Assembly: GCA_024278275.1 (NCBI GenBank)
Contig: JAJRTN010000043.1
Location: 1 to 64,000, forward strand
Direction: 5' to 3'
Origin: Candidatus Hydrogenedentota bacterium
GTDB lineage: Bacteria; Hydrogenedentota; Hydrogenedentia; Hydrogenedentales; JAJRTN01
Length of the DNA: 64,000 nt
Within the stretch, counting starts at the first letter, position 1; each line of letters begins with the position of its first letter. The translations under genes and the position numbers were made by a program. The notes beneath the pieces were generated by a model, which worked only from the letters and a program-made list of their open reading frames with translations, made no database searches and had not been told where the DNA came from. Positions 31,727 to 62,774 of this stretch are shown in pieces.

Positions 31727-32947
<1,221 letters not shown>

Positions 32948-33476
32948 CCCGGACATTTCACCCATTTCGTCGTGAGCATGGGCCGATTGGGCCAGGCCAG
33001 GGGCTTGGCGAAGCAAGGCGAACGACGGCGTGTATTCGCCGAACGGGACAAGTCCTTGAGATGACCCGAGATACGTGTGCGCAACAGGAGGCTGGTGGAA
33101 TTTCCGGGCGCGTTCCGCGGTATAGGCGGCACTGCACACATGCCGTGCGGAACGACCCCGGGCTATTATTGTTTTGCGCAGACCGCATATTCCGACCGTA
33201 TAATCAGGGCTTGTCCACAAGTTATCCACAGCCCGGCGCAACACCAGGCACGAACATCGGCCCTCTTGCCAGGCATCCATAACCTGTTCTTTGACAATAG
33301 GTTACAGAAATAAACACGAAGCATTCCGCTTTCCCGTATATCCGTACAGGCAACCAAAGATGAAAACTATTCACCACGGTTCACCACGGGGCGTAAACAC
33401 CGTGTTAAGTGATAACTGGCATCTGATGAACAAAACTGCTTAAGTCGGGAACGACGGAAACGGGGATGGTCCAACC
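32948..33476. other. Non-coding region with DnaA boxes and short repeats
   Basis: The 529 bases between argG and rsmD are richer in A+T than their surroundings in the second half. They contain two DnaA-box-like nonamers (33211-33230), a TATAAT at 33199-33204, TTGACA at 33291-33296, and TTCACCACGG repeated in tandem at 33370-33389. No coding frame looks real. A regulatory or replication role is possible. Confidence 0.5.
33211..33230 (+). promoter_or_regulatory. Two tandem DnaA boxes
   Basis: TTGTCCACA (33211-33219) and the perfect consensus TTATCCACA (33222-33230) lie in the same direction 11 bases apart. This pair is common at replication origins and at some DnaA-controlled promoters. A TATAAT is 7 bases upstream of the first box. 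Confidence 0.55.
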
Positions 33477-34013
33477 GTGAGAATTATCGCTGGAGCAGCA
33501 CGGGGCCGACGGCTTGCGGTCCCGCCGGGTCAGGACATTCGGCCCACTGCCGACCGTGTTCGTGAGGCTTTGTTCAGTATGTTATCGCCTCGGCTGCCGG
33601 GGGCGCGGTTCCTGGATCTCTTCGCGGGCTCCGGCGCCAATGGCCTTGAGGCCGTGAGCCGGGGGGCGGCACGGGCCGTGCTGGTGGACAACGACCGGAA
33701 ATCGCTCACGGCCATCCGCATGAACGTGGCTCGCACGGGGCTGTCAGGTGACATTCAGTGCATTCAGGCCACCCTTCCCGAAGAGATGGCCCGTGTGGGC
33801 CGTCCCTTCGATATTGTTTTCGCGGATCCCCCGTATGCCTTCGCACAATACGAAGCGTTGTTGCAGGTCCTGTCGGACCGGGCCATCCTGACCGGCGACG
33901 GCATGGTCTGCATCGAGCACGCCCGCAAGACCACCCTGCCCGAAACCGTGGGGGCCGTGCGACGCATTCGTGAGCGCTTGTATGGACACACGGCACTCAG
34001 TATCTATATTTAG
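33477..34013 (+). CDS. rsmD: 16S rRNA (guanine-966-N2)-methyltransferase
   Basis: The 178-residue SAM-dependent enzyme methylates G966 of 16S rRNA in the small subunit. Diagnostic features are RIIAGAARGRRL at the start, PTADRVREALFSML, the SAM motif FLDLFAGSGANGLEAVSRGA, and the catalytic DPPY in IVFADPPYAF. The start is GTG at 33477, with only a weak GGGGAT upstream. nrdR follows after a 223-base gap that contains its own control region. Confidence 0.95.
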   Translation: MRIIAGAARGRRLAVPPGQDIRPTADRVREALFSMLSPRLPGARFLDLFAGSGANGLEAVSRGAARAVLVDNDRKSLTAIRMNVARTGLSGDIQCIQATLPEEMARVGRPFDIVFADPPYAFAQYEALLQVLSDRAILTGDGMVCIEHARKTTLPETVGAVRRIRERLYGHTALSIYI

Positions 34014-34027
34014 ACATTTTCCGAATC

Positions 34028-34079
34028 TTGACACCGCATATAGTATCTGATACCCTATGCCTAACACTATATAGGGCAT
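34028..34079 (+). promoter_or_regulatory. nrdR promoter with two NrdR-box-like sites
   Basis: TTGACA (34028-34033) and TACCCT (34051-34056) are spaced by 17 bases. Two sites resembling the NrdR box ACAC(A/T)ATATAT(A/T)GTGT overlie this promoter: 34031-34046 (ACACCGCATATAGTAT) and 34064-34079 (ACACTATATAGGGCAT), each matching 12 of 16 positions. Their starts are 33 bases apart, about three helical turns, the arrangement usual for NrdR. One covers the -35 element and the other the start-site region, as expected for repression. Confidence 0.6.
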
Positions 34080-34236: not shown

Positions 34237-34746
34237 ATGCGCTGTCCTTTCTGTAACGAAACCAACGGTCGGGTCGTGGATTCACGTTCCTCCAAGGAGG
34301 GTGATGCCATTCGCCGCCGCCGTGAGTGCCTGAAGTGCGGGCGTCGCTTCACCACCTATGAGCGCATCGAGGAAGTGGCGCAGATGGTCATTAAAAAAGA
34401 CGGGCGCCGGGAGAACTTCGACCGCTGGAAGCTCAAGAGTGGTATCCTGAAAGCCGTCGAGAAACGGTCGATCAGCCTGGAACAAGTGGAGGCCATCATC
34501 GACGAGGTGGAGCGTGAACTTTTCAACTCGACGGAACATGAGGTGACAACCCATGCCGTGGGCGAAGGCGTCATGTCCAAGCTCCGCAAACTGGACGAAG
34601 TGGCCTATGTCCGTTTTGCCTCGGTCTATCGCCAGTTCAAGGACCTGAACGAATTCATGAGTGAGCTGAAGGGCATGCTCACCGACGAGAACGTTCGGGC
34701 TCAAGTGGCCCATGCCCAGGCCGCCGCCACGCCGGCCAAGCGTTGA
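34237..34746 (+). CDS. nrdR: Transcriptional repressor NrdR
   Basis: The 169-residue regulator of ribonucleotide reductase genes senses ATP/dATP. It has the zinc finger Cys3, Cys6, Cys31, Cys34 and an ATP-cone ([20 protein letters not shown] from about residue 50). The family end [18 protein letters not shown] is present. The ATG at 34237 has AGAAGG five bases upstream. It is followed by an NrdD-like gene that also carries ATP-cones, a functionally coherent pair. Confidence 0.97.
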
Positions 34747-37185: not shown

Positions 37186-38547
37186 TTACCCTCCCGCGAG
37201 AAAAGCCCGGATTTCGCTTTCCGTGGCGACGAGGGGAACCACGTTGATGCGAAAGGAGGCCTCCATCTCGTTGATGGTGGCCAGGTCGAGGGGGTCGGCC
37301 ATGGCGAGGTAGACCGTGGCGCCCTCGCGCCGAAGCGGTACGCAGCAACGCTTAAGGGCACTGCGCCGGGGCAGCAACTGGACCGTTTCCCGGTCGATGG
37401 CAGGCGAAGTGAAGTCGGCCCGGGCCAGATGAAGCTGGCGGCACAGGGCACGGGCGATATCATCCTCGGTGGCGTTACCGCGCTTCAGCACCAGTGTGCC
37501 GAAACGCGCCCCGGTACGGCGCTGCTCCTCCAGAACGGCGTCCCGCTGATGGGACGAAATAACGCCTGCTTCCACGAGCAGGGCGCCAAGCCGCAAAGGA
37601 GCCAGCATGTCTTCAACCCGCGGAAGCGTTCGCGTTTCGGTGTTGGACGCGGTGTCCACAAGCGGTGTGCTCGGCGGGCTAAGCCGGGGAGCCTGCCCCC
37701 GCGCCGCGTCCCGGAGTGCCCGGACCAGGGCGTCACAGGAGTCAAAACGGTCCTCGGGCCGCTTGGCCAAACCTCGCAGGAGCACCTGGTTCACGGTATG
37801 GGAAACACCGGGAACAGGCGGGGCGGGTTTGAATTGGATCTGGGTGACGATGGAACCCTGGTGGAAGGGCGGGTGTCCGGAAAGAAGCTCATAGATACTT
37901 GCGGCAAAACTGTATTGATCACTTCGGGCGTCCAGCTCCTCCCCCATGAGCTGCTCAGGGCTGACATAGACCAGCGTACCGAAACTCAATTCCCCGGTAA
38001 GACGGTTGGTCACTTCCCGCGCGGTGCGGGCAATGCCGAAGTCGGCCAACCGGGGTTCCCCCGTTGCATCGAGCAACATGTTCGCCGGCTTCACATCGCG
38101 GTGAAGCACCTCCTGGCCATGGGCATAATCCAGGGCGGCGCTGATGTCATGCAACCATGGCAACAGGTCATCGAGCGCGAGGGTGCCGCCCCGGTCGATC
38201 AGCACATCGGCGAGATTGGCCCCTTCCACGTACTCCATGGTAATGAAACGGGTGTCATCGGTTTCCCAAAAGGTGTATACCGCCAAAATATGGGGGTGGC
38301 GCAGCCGCCGGGTCAACAGCACCTCGCGTTTGAGATCCGCCACGGCCCGGCGATCCTGCTGCAAGGTTTCCTTCAGCACCTTGCAGGCCACGGGATCGTT
38401 GTCGAGCTGGGCATCACGCGCAAGCCAGACCGAGCCGATGCCGCCCTGTCCCACGCAACGTTCCAAACGAAAGCGCTCCGCCAAAACGTCACCCGGCGAC
38501 AAGATAAATGGTCTGTTGCCGGCTGGGTTACCCCCGTTTGGGGTCAT
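37186..38547 (-). CDS. Hanks-type Ser/Thr protein kinase with C-terminal MshEN domain
   Basis: The 453-residue protein has a full kinase domain at residues about 26-285: glycine loop GQGGIG (33-38), Lys56, HRDVKPAN from 149, DFG at 169-171 and SPEQL at 196-200. After a Pro-rich linker, residues about 319-445 match the MshEN (GspE-N) fold, including RLGALLVEAGVIS and QRRTGARFGTLVLKRG. In type II secretion and pilus ATPases this fold can bind cyclic di-GMP. No TM helix, so cytoplasmic. ATG 38547 has AAGGATG upstream. Confidence 0.87.
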   Translation of the reverse strand: MTPNGGNPAGNRPFILSPGDVLAERFRLERCVGQGGIGSVWLARDAQLDNDPVACKVLKETLQQDRRAVADLKREVLLTRRLRHPHILAVYTFWETDDTRFITMEYVEGANLADVLIDRGGTLALDDLLPWLHDISAALDYAHGQEVLHRDVKPANMLLDATGEPRLADFGIARTAREVTNRLTGELSFGTLVYVSPEQLMGEELDARSDQYSFAASIYELLSGHPPFHQGSIVTQIQFKPAPPVPGVSHTVNQVLLRGLAKRPEDRFDSCDALVRALRDAARGQAPRLSPPSTPLVDTASNTETRTLPRVEDMLAPLRLGALLVEAGVISSHQRDAVLEEQRRTGARFGTLVLKRGNATEDDIARALCRQLHLARADFTSPAIDRETVQLLPRRSALKRCCVPLRREGATVYLAMADPLDLATINEMEASFRINVVPLVATESEIRAFLAGG

Positions 38548-39170
38548 GGGCACATCCTTATCCGGTTTGCGAGCCGTGTGTTCCACCAAGAGTCTAACAA
38601 GGGACCGGTGCCGGGTCAATGGTGGACGCAGTGGACATAAAGTAAGCGTCCACGGCGTAATCTATCAAATGTTCATTCTCTTGAATGTGGCACAGCCGCC
38701 CCCGGCTGTGAGGCCGATAGGTCTCACACCACCGGAGGTCAGGGGGACACAATCATTTCGGCATGATTCAGCGACTCTACTCAGCGACCGCTTTCAATTG
38801 GAGTCCCTGCGGACTCCACAGCCGGGGGCGGCTGTGCCACAAAAACAAAGCTCCTCCTCTTCCCAAGCCGGGGGCGACTGTGCCACAAAATAAAGCTCCT
38901 CCTCTTCCCTGTATTCGTTCCTGTCGCCCCCATTATCCCAGGGCGGGCAAGGGATGTCGTAAACGGTTACGACAAAGACCAGAGTCCATCGCCACGGACC
39001 GTCCACTTAGTCTACTTAGTCCACTCCGTCCACCGACCTGGAATGGGTGGAACCGGCCGGGGAATGAGGTGACGTGCGGAGAGCACCCCCGTGAATGGAT
39101 AATGCAGGAAATCGTCTGGTTGGGTGCGAACCGACAGGGTGATGGAAAGAAAGTGACCGGAGGACATGTC
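38548..39170. other. Non-coding stretch rich in dispersed repeats
   Basis: These 623 bases separate the divergent kinase and FecR-like genes. They contain the GGCACAGCCGCC palindrome family (38683-38910) and a degenerate GTCCACTTAGTC tandem (39001-39035; a similar tract is at about 48577-48613). I see no credible gene. A frame open through the region is low-complexity repeat translation. Confidence 0.6.
38683..38910. repeat. Cluster of GGCACAGCCGCC(C/T)(C/T)GGCTGTG repeats
   Basis: One direct copy begins at 38683 (GAATGTGGCACAGCCGCC), one inverted copy at about 38816-38841, and a further inverted partial copy at about 38866-38887. A unit of about 44 bases (GCCGGGGGCG... AAAGCTCCTCCTC... TTCCC) is tandemly duplicated at 38821 and 38867. 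A matching direct copy lies at 51593-51631. This is a known kind of dispersed palindrome that yields VAQPPSAV shadow peptides. Confidence 0.7.
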
Positions 39171-59003: not shown

Positions 59004-59579
59004 TCACCTCAACAACCCATCTTTGTCGGAAGAATGAGGCGAATGACACGCCAGACATTCATCTCCCTGCTCCGCACGGTGCTTGTCCAGCCCAGGGTAG
59101 GTCTCCAAGGTATGGCACTGACCGCAAATGGCCGATCCCGAATCCAGCAATAAATGCTCATATCGCGATTTATGCGGATCATGACATCCATAACATTGCC
59201 CCGAAACCGCCGGTCCATGCTTCACCGAACCCTCGAATTCCTCCCCGGAATGACAAAGCCCACACAGTTTGGTCTTGACGGTCCGCAACCGGTTGGAGAA
59301 ACCTCCTTCGTGACACAGGTCGCACCGTCGCTCGGCGTAAGGCTGATGCACATAGAAGGTCGGCTCCTCGGGCCGAGTCTCTACGACCGAATTGGTTGTC
59401 TCTACCACCACCTCCTGTCCCGGTTCGGGGACACCGTCGAAAAAGAAACTGAGTGTTTTGTAACGTGATTCAGGTGTTGCACAGCCGGTACACTGCGATA
59501 CCATGAGGGCCGACAGCACCCAGGGCGCCACGGCCTTCCAGGGCAGATCCCGGAAATGTGGTATTCTTTGCCCATCCAC
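59004..59579 (-). CDS. Pentahaem c-type cytochrome lipoprotein
   Basis: The 191-residue protein has five haem sites (CDLCH, CGLCH, CYGCH, CGQCH, CLACH). The N-terminal signal WVLSALMVSQCTGC makes it a probable lipoprotein. CxxCHDPHKS and CxxCHSPHSS are doubled-CxxCH forms. The GTG start at 59579 is 6 bases after GGACGAG and directly follows the NHL gene stop at 59585; the longer frame to 59645 would overlap that gene by 61 bases. With the beta-barrel just downstream, it could be the periplasmic or outer-leaflet cytochrome of a porin-cytochrome complex. Confidence 0.88.
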   Translation of the reverse strand: MDGQRIPHFRDLPWKAVAPWVLSALMVSQCTGCATPESRYKTLSFFFDGVPEPGQEVVVETTNSVVETRPEEPTFYVHQPYAERRCDLCHEGGFSNRLRTVKTKLCGLCHSGEEFEGSVKHGPAVSGQCYGCHDPHKSRYEHLLLDSGSAICGQCHTLETYPGLDKHRAEQGDECLACHSPHSSDKDGLLR

Positions 59580-59584
59580 ACGTA

Positions 59585-60772
59585 TTACTCGTCCGTTTTC
59601 AGAAAGCCATACACATTGATCTTGTTCAGGCCGAACTGACTGCAAACCAGCACCAGGTATTCGATTTCATGACCCGGGGCAACAAGATCCTTGAAGTAAT
59701 CCACATTGTCGTAATCAATAACAACCGAAGCCGGCAGGTTAAGACCGCCCGTATGGTTGCCGGGCGTTCCGAAAAACAGCAGCAGTTTGCCTTCATCGTC
59801 AAAGATCTGGACATTCTCAAAGGCGGCATCAGCCACATAAAGCCGACCTTCCCGGTCCACGGCGATTCCCTTGGGACGCACGAAGTTTCCCATCTCCCGG
59901 CCCAAGGCGCCAATCTGCATCACGAAATTATCGCGCCGGTCAAAGCGCATGACGCGTGTGTTGCCCGTGTCCGACACAAACACGTTGCCGTCCAAATCAA
60001 TGGCGATGTTGGTGGGAAAAAAAAGCTGCCCCTCTCCACTGCCCTTGCTTCCAAAGCGGCGGATTTCATCACCCGTTTCCTTGTCGAGGATAACCACCTG
60101 AGCATTGTCAATATCGCATACATAAAGCTGGTCTTCAAGTAACTCCACATCGGTGGGCCCCATTTTTTCCGGGTCCCCCAGGGAACGAAGGTACTTGCCG
60201 TCCGAATCATAGACCATGATGCGCTTGTGGCCCGTGTCGGCCACGTAGCAGGTGCCGTCGGTATCCACGGCGATATTAATGGGTTTGCTCAGTGCCCCGG
60301 AATATCCCCGGCCAAAGGAGTCAAAACGCTTATTCTTCAAATCAAATATGGCCACGTAATTCGATGTCGTATCACACGCGTAGATTTTTCCGTCATGGAT
60401 GGCGACGCCATAGGGCTTGCCCACAGATTCATCGTTCTCTTCCTCCCCCACGACGAACTTGCGAAAGCCGCCCTTCTTGACCTGGATATCGCTTTTCTTG
60501 CTGAAGGTCCGCAGAAACTGCAAACGCGGCTGGGCCGGCGGGGAAGGGTATAAAACGAGGGGACGCTCCTCGTCTTTCTTTTTCTTCTTGCTTTTGGCGA
60601 AGGCGGTGGAAAACTCGGGAGATAAGAGCGTCATACAGAGCAGTATAATACCGATGGCACGAATCAGGGAAACACGTCGGTGTCCCCCCGTGGTATCCGC
60701 CCGCCGGTGCGGCGAAGGACGGACTTCCGCCTGATGGACCTGGTCTCTTTGGGCTGATGTTTGTTTTGTCAT
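59585..60772 (-). CDS. NHL-repeat protein with signal sequence
   Basis: The 395-residue protein has a basic start, a hydrophobic helix (IGIILLCMTLLSPEFSTAFA), a lysine cluster KKKKKDEERP, then a six-blade NHL propeller (ADTGHKRIMVYDSDGKYLRS, VSDTGNTRVMRFDRRDNF, RPKGIAVDREGRLYVADAAF). The propeller is paralogous to the NHL lipoprotein at 53425. No catalytic residues are evident. The start is uncertain: ATG 60772 or 60784. Exported; likely a scaffold in the same assembly as the pentahaem lipoprotein, whose gene begins 5 bases downstream. Confidence 0.87.
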   Translation of the reverse strand: MTKQTSAQRDQVHQAEVRPSPHRRADTTGGHRRVSLIRAIGIILLCMTLLSPEFSTAFAKSKKKKKDEERPLVLYPSPPAQPRLQFLRTFSKKSDIQVKKGGFRKFVVGEEENDESVGKPYGVAIHDGKIYACDTTSNYVAIFDLKNKRFDSFGRGYSGALSKPINIAVDTDGTCYVADTGHKRIMVYDSDGKYLRSLGDPEKMGPTDVELLEDQLYVCDIDNAQVVILDKETGDEIRRFGSKGSGEGQLFFPTNIAIDLDGNVFVSDTGNTRVMRFDRRDNFVMQIGALGREMGNFVRPKGIAVDREGRLYVADAAFENVQIFDDEGKLLLFFGTPGNHTGGLNLPASVVIDYDNVDYFKDLVAPGHEIEYLVLVCSQFGLNKINVYGFLKTDE

Positions 60773-61754: not shown

Positions 61755-61796
61755 CGCTTTCCTTCAATTTTCCATAACCCACTGTCGTACAATGAA

Positions 61797-62774
61797 TTAC
61801 CTGTTTGACAGGACCGCCTCCAGTCCTTCCTTGTAATAACGACCAGCCTCTTTGGGATTCCCTTCCTTCTCCGCCTGAAGCCCCAGCGCGTAATACAGCA
61901 AAGGATCGTGCTCGCCTTGGGCAAGAGCTTCCTCAATCAGTGGTTGTCCTTCCTTGGCCCGACCTAAACGCAACAGGGCCAGCCCTTTACCCCCCTGCCA
62001 TCGGGAATTGGCGGAGGCTTTCGCTTCCGCGGCGGTAAAGATGGTCAGGGCTTCTTTATTCTTCCCCTCGCGCAGCAGCAACCAGGCCAAGGCAATGCCG
62101 CTGTCCGTGTCTTCCGGGTTGGCCTCCCAGGCCTTGGACAGCAAGGCGCGGGCGCCTTCCAGGTCGCCCCGCTCAATCAGCCGCCGGGCCAAGCCGTAAC
62201 GGGACGCCCCCCGGTCGTTTTTCTTCACGGGCTGTGCCGGCGCCAAGCGGGCCTCGTGTTCCGAGGCGGAAATCTTTCCGGCCAGCAAATCCAGATGGGC
62301 ACGGGCCAGTTTTTGGAAATCGCGACGGTACCCGGCGTAATAGAATTGCAGTCGCCCCGCCCCATCCACGAAACCCACGGCCGGAGCCACAATCACGCCG
62401 AAGGCCCCGTAGGCGGAACGGTCGGGGTCCAGGTACACGGGAAAGCGCAAGTCCATGGATTTCGCCGCCTCGGCCACGTCCCCCGGTTCCACCTCGCCCG
62501 AGCAGATGGCAATGAATTTCGCCTCTTTTTCCGAGTAATCTGCGGATAGTTCGGATAATTCGGTCAAGAGACGCTTTGAATAGGGCTGCCCGAGCCGCCA
62601 GAACACGATCACGGCGGGCGTTCCATGCAACAGATCCGCCCCTTTCAGAGGGGCGCCCTCCAAGGATTGCACTTGCACCGGGGGGATGGCTTCGCCCGTG
62701 GTGACCGCCTCAAAAGCGGTGGCCGAGGAAAGCAGCAGGGAAAGAAGCAAAACCGTACCGGACACGACACCCAT
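61797..62774 (-). CDS. Exported thioredoxin-fold/TPR protein lacking CxxC
   Basis: The 325-residue protein has a signal peptide (TVLLLSLLLSSATA). A redoxin/TlpA-like domain covers residues about 25-165: IPPVQVQSLEGAPLKG, PAVIVFWRLGQPYSKRLL, GVIVAPAVGFVDGAG. The usual WCxxC is replaced by WRLGQPYS, so no redox-active pair remains. The C-terminal half has about four TPR-like repeats (ARALLSKAWEANPEDTDS, ALTIFTAAEAKASANSR). It may be a chaperone or assembly scaffold for the cytochromes. ATG 62774 with GAGAGG is chosen. Confidence 0.82.
   Translation of the reverse strand: MGVVSGTVLLLSLLLSSATAFEAVTTGEAIPPVQVQSLEGAPLKGADLLHGTPAVIVFWRLGQPYSKRLLTELSELSADYSEKEAKFIAICSGEVEPGDVAEAAKSMDLRFPVYLDPDRSAYGAFGVIVAPAVGFVDGAGRLQFYYAGYRRDFQKLARAHLDLLAGKISASEHEARLAPAQPVKKNDRGASRYGLARRLIERGDLEGARALLSKAWEANPEDTDSGIALAWLLLREGKNKEALTIFTAAEAKASANSRWQGGKGLALLRLGRAKEGQPLIEEALAQGEHDPLLYYALGLQAEKEGNPKEAGRYYKEGLEAVLSNR

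Follow-up and report, generated by a model that had tools for sequence, protein, structure and literature searches.

The closest described counterparts of the locus reported here are the double DnaA boxes of Escherichia coli. According to one report, E. coli DnaA has a preference for double boxes with a 2-3 bp spacer; ChIP-seq places it upstream of nrdD and suggests regulation of nrdD and nrdG, and nrdA is a target established earlier (PMC11317965). The double-box sites described there (nrdA, nrdD, purH, polA, mioC) resemble the site in this study in consisting of a pair of 9-mers with a 2-3 bp spacer, and the presence of nucleotide-synthesis and replication genes among those downstream of them adds to the likeness (PMC11317965). 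Unlike these sites, the present locus precedes an rsmD-nrdR unit and has in addition a 25-bp palindrome and a weak third box at a preferred spacing.

The sites DARS1, DARS2 and datA of E. coli are, like this locus, clusters of DnaA boxes outside oriC and near genes; their boxes stand in a characteristic arrangement with IHF and Fis sites, and they act on the ATP/ADP state of DnaA. The origin unwinding module BUS (boxes, spacer and DnaA-trios) has tandem boxes of the same type (PMC8287927). On inspection by eye, no run of DnaA-trios was seen after the pair in the window. Among the matches listed in PMC, whose coverage largely excludes subscription journals, there was no origin or DnaA study of Hydrogenedentota, no description of a comparable module (rsmD with DnaA, or NrdR with a DnaA box), and no Hydrogenedentota palindrome with a transcription factor.

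The window, the whole 64,000-nucleotide stretch that was analysed, belongs to contig C197 of G000, a 200-contig, 5.35-Mb draft Hydrogenedentota assembly whose DnaA has as its nearest named records two Candidatus Hydrogenedentota MAGs (69-70% identity). Genes were called with a crude ORF scorer. The features of the locus are the following.

31727-32947, + strand: argG (argininosuccinate synthase); Pfam PF20979, 280 bits, and PF00764, 215 bits; start MANARKV chosen by eye
33211-33219, + strand: DnaA box 1, TTGTCCACA, read from the sequence
33222-33230, + strand: DnaA box 2, TTATCCACA, following box 1 after a 2-bp spacer 'ag' (11-bp period) and forming with it a double DnaA box
33280-33304, no strand assigned: 25-bp palindrome (element B), TAACCTGTTCTTTGACAATAGGTTA, the top matrix match on the 101-kb contig
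33365-33374, + strand: element C, AACTATTCAC, a degenerate DnaA-box-like site at +154 from the pair start
33370-33389, + strand: 10-base tandem repeat, two copies of TTCACCACGG, overlapping element C
33477-34013, + strand: rsmD (16S rRNA methyltransferase family); Pfam PF03602 Cons_hypoth95, 186.7 bits over the whole protein
34031-34046 and 34064-34079, + strand: two NrdR-box-like 16-mers before nrdR, starts 33 bp apart, each matching 12 of 16 positions of the NrdR-box consensus
34237-34746, + strand: nrdR (repressor of ribonucleotide reductase genes); Pfam Zn_ribbon_NrdR, 74 bits, and ATP-cone, 82 bits
34852-37149, + strand: NrdD-like paralogue; ATP-cone, followed in the Pfam results by a weak NRDD match (128.8 bits) reaching position 498 of the 562 in the profile

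We take PF03602 (Cons_hypoth95) to be the RsmD family. An earlier note on this DNA had described tandem DnaA boxes followed by an A+T-richer stretch with TTGACA and 10-base tandem repeats, in a 529-base gap without genes, and each part of this description holds. The pair at 33211-33230, TTGTCCACA-ag-TTATCCACA with both boxes on the + strand, has the form of a double box (two 9-mers close to TTATCCACA, 2 or 3 bp apart), and it is the single case in the whole genome of exact TTRTCCACA matches within 25 bp of each other (reversed-pattern control, 0); two such matches anywhere within 64 kb are not rare, occurring in 17 of 100 shuffles. The gap between argG and rsmD (32948-33476, 529 bases, 54.6% GC) is reached by a sole listed ORF of at least 90 amino acids, 32648-33280 on the - strand, which is antisense, overlaps argG and was not accepted as a gene. 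Its least stable 80-bp window starts at 33290, with 0.39% of contig windows less stable. TTGACA is present at 33291-33296; it falls within the palindrome, most relatives of which have no TTGACA there, and for this reason we set it aside as a -35 element. The tandem repeat was seen in 1 of 60 rsmD upstream regions read, that of G000 alone. The search for further boxes that the note had suggested gave six on the whole 101-kb contig, and dnaA lies elsewhere, on contig C150; its product has N-terminal, ATPase and helix-turn-helix domains (Bac_DnaA_C, 104 bits). Since Rfam at gathering thresholds gave no match in the window, an RNA element was rejected; a sub-threshold P10 match (25.1 of 37 bits) inside rsmD, on the opposite strand, was taken as chance.

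The note had tied its readings to conservation of the boxes in relatives, and conservation was found. Exact pairs occur at 15 places in 13 of 60 genomes of the same order (G000 included), with a 2-bp spacer in all 15 where 0-10 bp were allowed; the reversed-pattern control matched in one of the 60, G002. When one mismatch was allowed, a 2-bp-spaced pair was found at 84 places, spread over 50 of the 68 genomes of the phylum; the reversed control matched in 0 of 68. These counts are uncorrected for relatedness. Of the 84 places, rsmD accounts for 17, all on its own strand and 202-436 bp before the gene; dnaA accounts for 24, found in 20 genomes on the strand opposite to the gene and 112-383 bp before it; the remaining 43 are elsewhere. 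Fifteen of the latter loci share a protein identified on one representative as DnaN, with the pair 545-600 bp upstream of the match in 10 and on its 3' side in 5. The dnaA upstream region of G000 (C150; L001:2428-2717) has the 2-bp-spaced, one-mismatch pair CTGTCCACA-at-TTGTCCACA, and pairs are likewise present there in 19 other genomes; a pair in this place probably serves autoregulation of dnaA.

Homologues of rsmD were found in 61 of the 68 genomes, and 60 of the 61 upstream regions were read (G028, at a contig end, was left out). Within 600 bp upstream of rsmD these contain 65 DnaA boxes, 1.84 per kb against 0.06 in shuffled sequence, or about 30-fold; 62 of the 65 are on the rsmD strand, and 23 of the 60 regions have two or more. 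The gene before rsmD belongs to many unrelated groups, on either strand, and the linkage of the boxes to rsmD stays: in 36 of the 60 at least one box remains upstream of this one gene while the other neighbour varies. As argG is present in the fetched flank of 8 of the 60 rsmD loci, control of argG by DnaA was set aside. Over the same distance, dnaA has 49 boxes in 36 upstream regions (2.31 per kb against 0.04 shuffled), from a set that is biased in that three of the 36 (L010-L012) were chosen because a pair was present; 39 regions had been taken from 61 places, and L242, L245 and L247 were left out. For dnaN the count is 87 boxes in the best 30 of 51 listed places (4.89 per kb against 0.09 shuffled; 27 of 30 with at least one), a density about 2.7 times that upstream of rsmD. 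That the pairs are chance or inherited sequence with no function is extremely unlikely: 22 of 59 rsmD upstream regions have no recognisable pair, and neither the shuffles nor the reversed patterns are corrected for relatedness, but a count of 50 genomes against none in the control, and the preferred spacing of three elements described next, are hard to attribute to chance.

These elements emerged from an EM motif search of 31 rsmD upstream regions in which strong boxes were masked and five loci named as close relatives were left out. Its log-likelihood was 54 against 27-34 in shuffles at width 10, and 105 against 54-59 at width 18. The narrower motif is element C, a degenerate box (AGTAATtCAC); counted from the pair start, 15 of 31 regions have its best match between +152 and +166. 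C-like matches between +148 and +168 were found in 21 of 35, while control offsets gave 8 of 206. The wider motif is the left part of element B, and 13 of 31 regions have its best match between +66 and +72. Element B as a whole is an imperfect 25-bp palindrome of the form TAAnnnnTTnnnnnnnAAnnnnTTA. In the window it begins 69 bp from the pair start and scores 20.7, the next match on the contig scoring 16.2; this second copy is at 61775-61799. A resemblance of the palindrome to a BirA-like pattern (TAACC-N15-GGTTA) was considered and dropped, most relatives keeping only TAA...TTA.

The palindrome goes with the pair. For 59 rsmD upstream regions (L149 was too short), with a pair threshold of 13 chosen post hoc, the best element B match lies at +66 to +72 in 25 of the 37 that bear a pair, 22 of these scoring above 12, and elsewhere in 12; none of the 22 pair-less regions has a palindrome score above 12. 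In the 25 regions with element B in place the distance from pair to rsmD varies from 214 to 547 bp, so the elements are phased to each other and not to the gene. Such phasing would be expected if the DNA-protein complex itself were the function, as in a DnaA-recharging or titration site, comparable to DARS or datA, that sets the activity or free amount of DnaA and has rsmD as a mere neighbour. E. coli DARS1 and DARS2 are also upstream of genes (uvrB and mutH, in passages of PMC11317965), and the palindrome is common to the dnaN upstream region. We nevertheless consider such a site rather unlikely here: one strong pair and one weak box are few for titration, and the orientation of the boxes follows rsmD, whose linkage to them persists when the other neighbour changes.

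With reasonable confidence, and on comparative grounds, we favour a conserved DnaA-binding regulatory module at 33211-33230 and its palindrome, one that modulates rsmD-nrdR and is not a chromosome origin. DnaA would occupy the double box with its 2-bp spacer, probably in cooperative dimeric form. The palindrome, some 50 bp beyond, would be bound by a second, putative dimeric protein, and element C may be a further contact of DnaA. Together the bound factors would modulate transcription of the downstream rsmD-nrdR unit. In E. coli, DnaA occupancy changes with the replication cycle. If it does so here, the supply of dNTPs, and possibly ribosome maturation, would be tied to initiation. The module looks more like a switch tying gene control to replication than like a replication start. 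The sites, their conservation and spacing, the linkage to rsmD and the sharing of the palindrome with the dnaN upstream region are observed; from them we infer DnaA binding, a palindrome-binding protein, and regulation together with its sign.

Several lines of evidence count for the regulatory module: pairs in most genomes and in none of the reversed controls, the enrichment of boxes and their orientation upstream of rsmD, the phasing of the palindrome and its lack of high scores in pair-less regions, the boxes before true nrdD described below, and the usual helix-turn-helix domain of the G000 DnaA. The pair-less upstream regions and the palindromes out of place count against it, as do a -35-like TTGACA near rsmD, far downstream of the pair, in several relatives, and the separate gap before nrdR with its NrdR-box-like sites. 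Of the two readings offered by the earlier note, DnaA control of an rsmD-nrdR-NrdD-like unit is supported for rsmD-nrdR on comparative evidence (the roughly 30-fold excess of boxes, their strand, and the varying gene before rsmD). What favours control of rsmD-nrdR is the varying upstream gene, the position of nrdR after rsmD, the boxes before nrdD and the E. coli parallel taken together. If true, it would extend DnaA double-box control of dNTP-related genes to Hydrogenedentota.

The gene order bears on how far the control might reach. Among the best-matched 30 rsmD loci, nrdR follows rsmD in 27; in 10 genomes no more than 4.5 kb separate the NrdD-like gene from rsmD. Of 30 true nrdD loci, chosen as the best PF13597 matches, 12 have DnaA boxes in the 600 bp before the gene (23 boxes, a raw density of 1.35 per kb); within this set G019 and G025, of family f7, have double boxes. 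These observations would also fit an element that controls nrdR and the supply of ribonucleotide reductase alone, rsmD lying merely between and the transcripts being read for their nrdR and NrdD-like parts. We regard this as quite unlikely, since nrdR has an intergenic gap of its own (median 138 bp in those 27 loci) with NrdR-box-like sites, and may for the same reason be controlled separately from rsmD. In the 27 gaps the best NrdR-box-like match averages 11.9 of 16 positions, against 9.2 in shuffles. The two 16-mers before nrdR in the window suggest that this gene is autoregulated. Weak NRDD matches similar to that of the NrdD-like paralogue are present in 59 of 68 genomes according to a hand-made list, the one in G058 being probably a fragment of a true NrdD.

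The other reading of the earlier note, a replication-origin candidate at the pair, is disfavoured by GC skew, which we compared in flanks of 10, 20 and 30 kb (shorter at the ends of a contig or stretch) on draft contigs only. At the G000 pair the 20-kb flanks have skews of -0.034 and -0.021 (z 0.8), with no change of sign. The corresponding z values in relatives are -0.2 in G037, 1.8 in G047 (2.1 at 10 kb), -0.5 in G008 and 3.1 in G012 (5.2 at 30 kb), so that a step at rsmD is absent at 20 kb in 4 of 5 contigs, three of the four relatives among them, and none of the five changes sign. G012 is the exception: its cumulative minimum is 4 kb from rsmD, the minimum near dnaN being about 20 kb away, which goes against a non-origin reading of the rsmD site in that genome.

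At dnaN, skew rises in 7 of 7 contigs at 20 kb (d +0.017 to +0.124), with z of at least 2 in six (G004 6.3, G014 3.6, G020 4.5, G047 4.7, G037 2.4 and G000 2.2, the last with a right flank of only about 2 kb; G012 0.8). The sign changes in three of the seven (G004, G037, G000), and the cumulative minimum of the stretch is within 4 kb of dnaN in three (G004, G037, G047). Two contigs with dnaA gave z values of 1.2 and -0.8. The gap upstream of G000 dnaN, on contig C30, contains four boxes within 59244-59921 (at 59244, 59546, 59828, 59913) and two palindromes (at 59673, 59740); the 80-bp segment that is least stable in the contig also falls here. The gene before this gap is gspE-like by eye, with Pfam T2SSE and MshEN matches on the representative L196. 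In the best 30 of 51 listed dnaN upstream regions, GTTCCACG and CGTGGAAC each occur in 14 (for example L262), against 0.2-0.5 in shuffles; both resemble half of a parS site.

The probable oriC upstream of dnaN resembles the rsmD site in having boxes, often a 2-bp-spaced pair, and the same palindrome, about 50 bp from the pair in several genomes. Unlike at the rsmD site, the pair there points away from the gene, palindromes often number two or three, boxes are more numerous, and GC skew rises. A chromosome origin at the window site itself would explain the double box, the unstable A+T-richer stretch from 33290 and the palindrome common to dnaN, and it draws on the steps in G012 and, at 10 kb only, G047, as well as on the limited number of sign changes and minima near dnaN. 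It is very improbable all the same: four of the five rsmD contigs lack a step and none changes sign, skew rises at every dnaN, boxes are denser there, and the window site, with two strong boxes and one weak against four at G000 dnaN, is not the box cluster of an oriC. The note had named a skew minimum elsewhere as part of its refutation, and the skew evidence, from draft contigs, does point elsewhere. From draft contigs, short of a whole-chromosome test, we conclude that oriC probably lies at dnaN, outside the window. If the favoured reading is true, the gap before dnaN would be the probable oriC of the phylum.

The palindrome is the unexpected part of the finding. A matrix made from the rsmD sites scores above 9 in 29 of 30 dnaN upstream regions (the best 30 of 51 listed) and in 9 of 36 dnaA upstream regions, the 99.99% quantile of the background being 7.6. 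The element B matrix took rsmD sites as its seed before it was re-estimated from the copies upstream of dnaN alone, and because of that seeding it is only partly independent as a test. A pattern search that tolerated up to two mismatches found element B in 65 of 68 genomes, at 0-35 copies per genome, sites exceeding reversed controls by 16 to 1 in G000, 21 to 0 in G037 and 13 to 0 in G014. Family f7 is an exception: controls equal or outnumber sites in G006, G013, G019 and G025, and G051 has no sites and three controls. In 60 stretches from eight genomes, picked from the listed matches and not at random, 54 of 62 sites are not inside an ORF of more than 100 amino acids, about 88% of the checked contigs being coding; intergenic A+T bias explains some part of this placement. 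One contig (G047:C88, L411) has two identical palindromes, TAAGTCATTGTTTTTCAATGACTTA, that match the pattern with no mismatch and start 1464 bp apart. Since a DnaA box lies within 400 bp of the palindrome at 3 of 20 sites checked outside dnaN and rsmD, the partnership of the two is not general.

Neighbours of the palindrome include genes for gyrase B, a chaperonin, flagellin, a flagellar rod protein, a T2SS-like ATPase, sigma-54 activators, a GreA-like protein, an HU-like protein (one representative of a three-genome cluster) and a DUF1559 pilin-like protein (one of a cluster of six). Other neighbours have no such link. The site neighbours in G000 and seven other genomes were of mixed families, from which no protein could be named as the palindrome binder. 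The cell-cycle regulator CtrA of Caulobacter has targets both at the origin and among flagellar and pilus genes. A speculative and unlikely extension is that Hydrogenedentota have an independent counterpart: a so far unrecognised master regulator with palindrome sites at the probable oriC (often two or three), at the rsmD-nrdR module, where DnaA would bind too, and before HU-like, gyrase B, flagellar and pilin-like genes. The palindrome would offer a tangible lead to a second factor, one that may connect the origin and a broader gene set.

A further protein of G000 (contig C193; L002:1258-3417, - strand), 719 amino acids long, combines an MshEN domain and an AAA+ ATPase domain of the DnaA type (181 bits), with no DnaA DNA-binding domain found by Pfam; by its domains it may be a DnaA-like regulator. 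MshEN is also joined in this genome with HDOD (L342), and in the window (37186-38619, - strand) it is fused to a Ser/Thr protein kinase.
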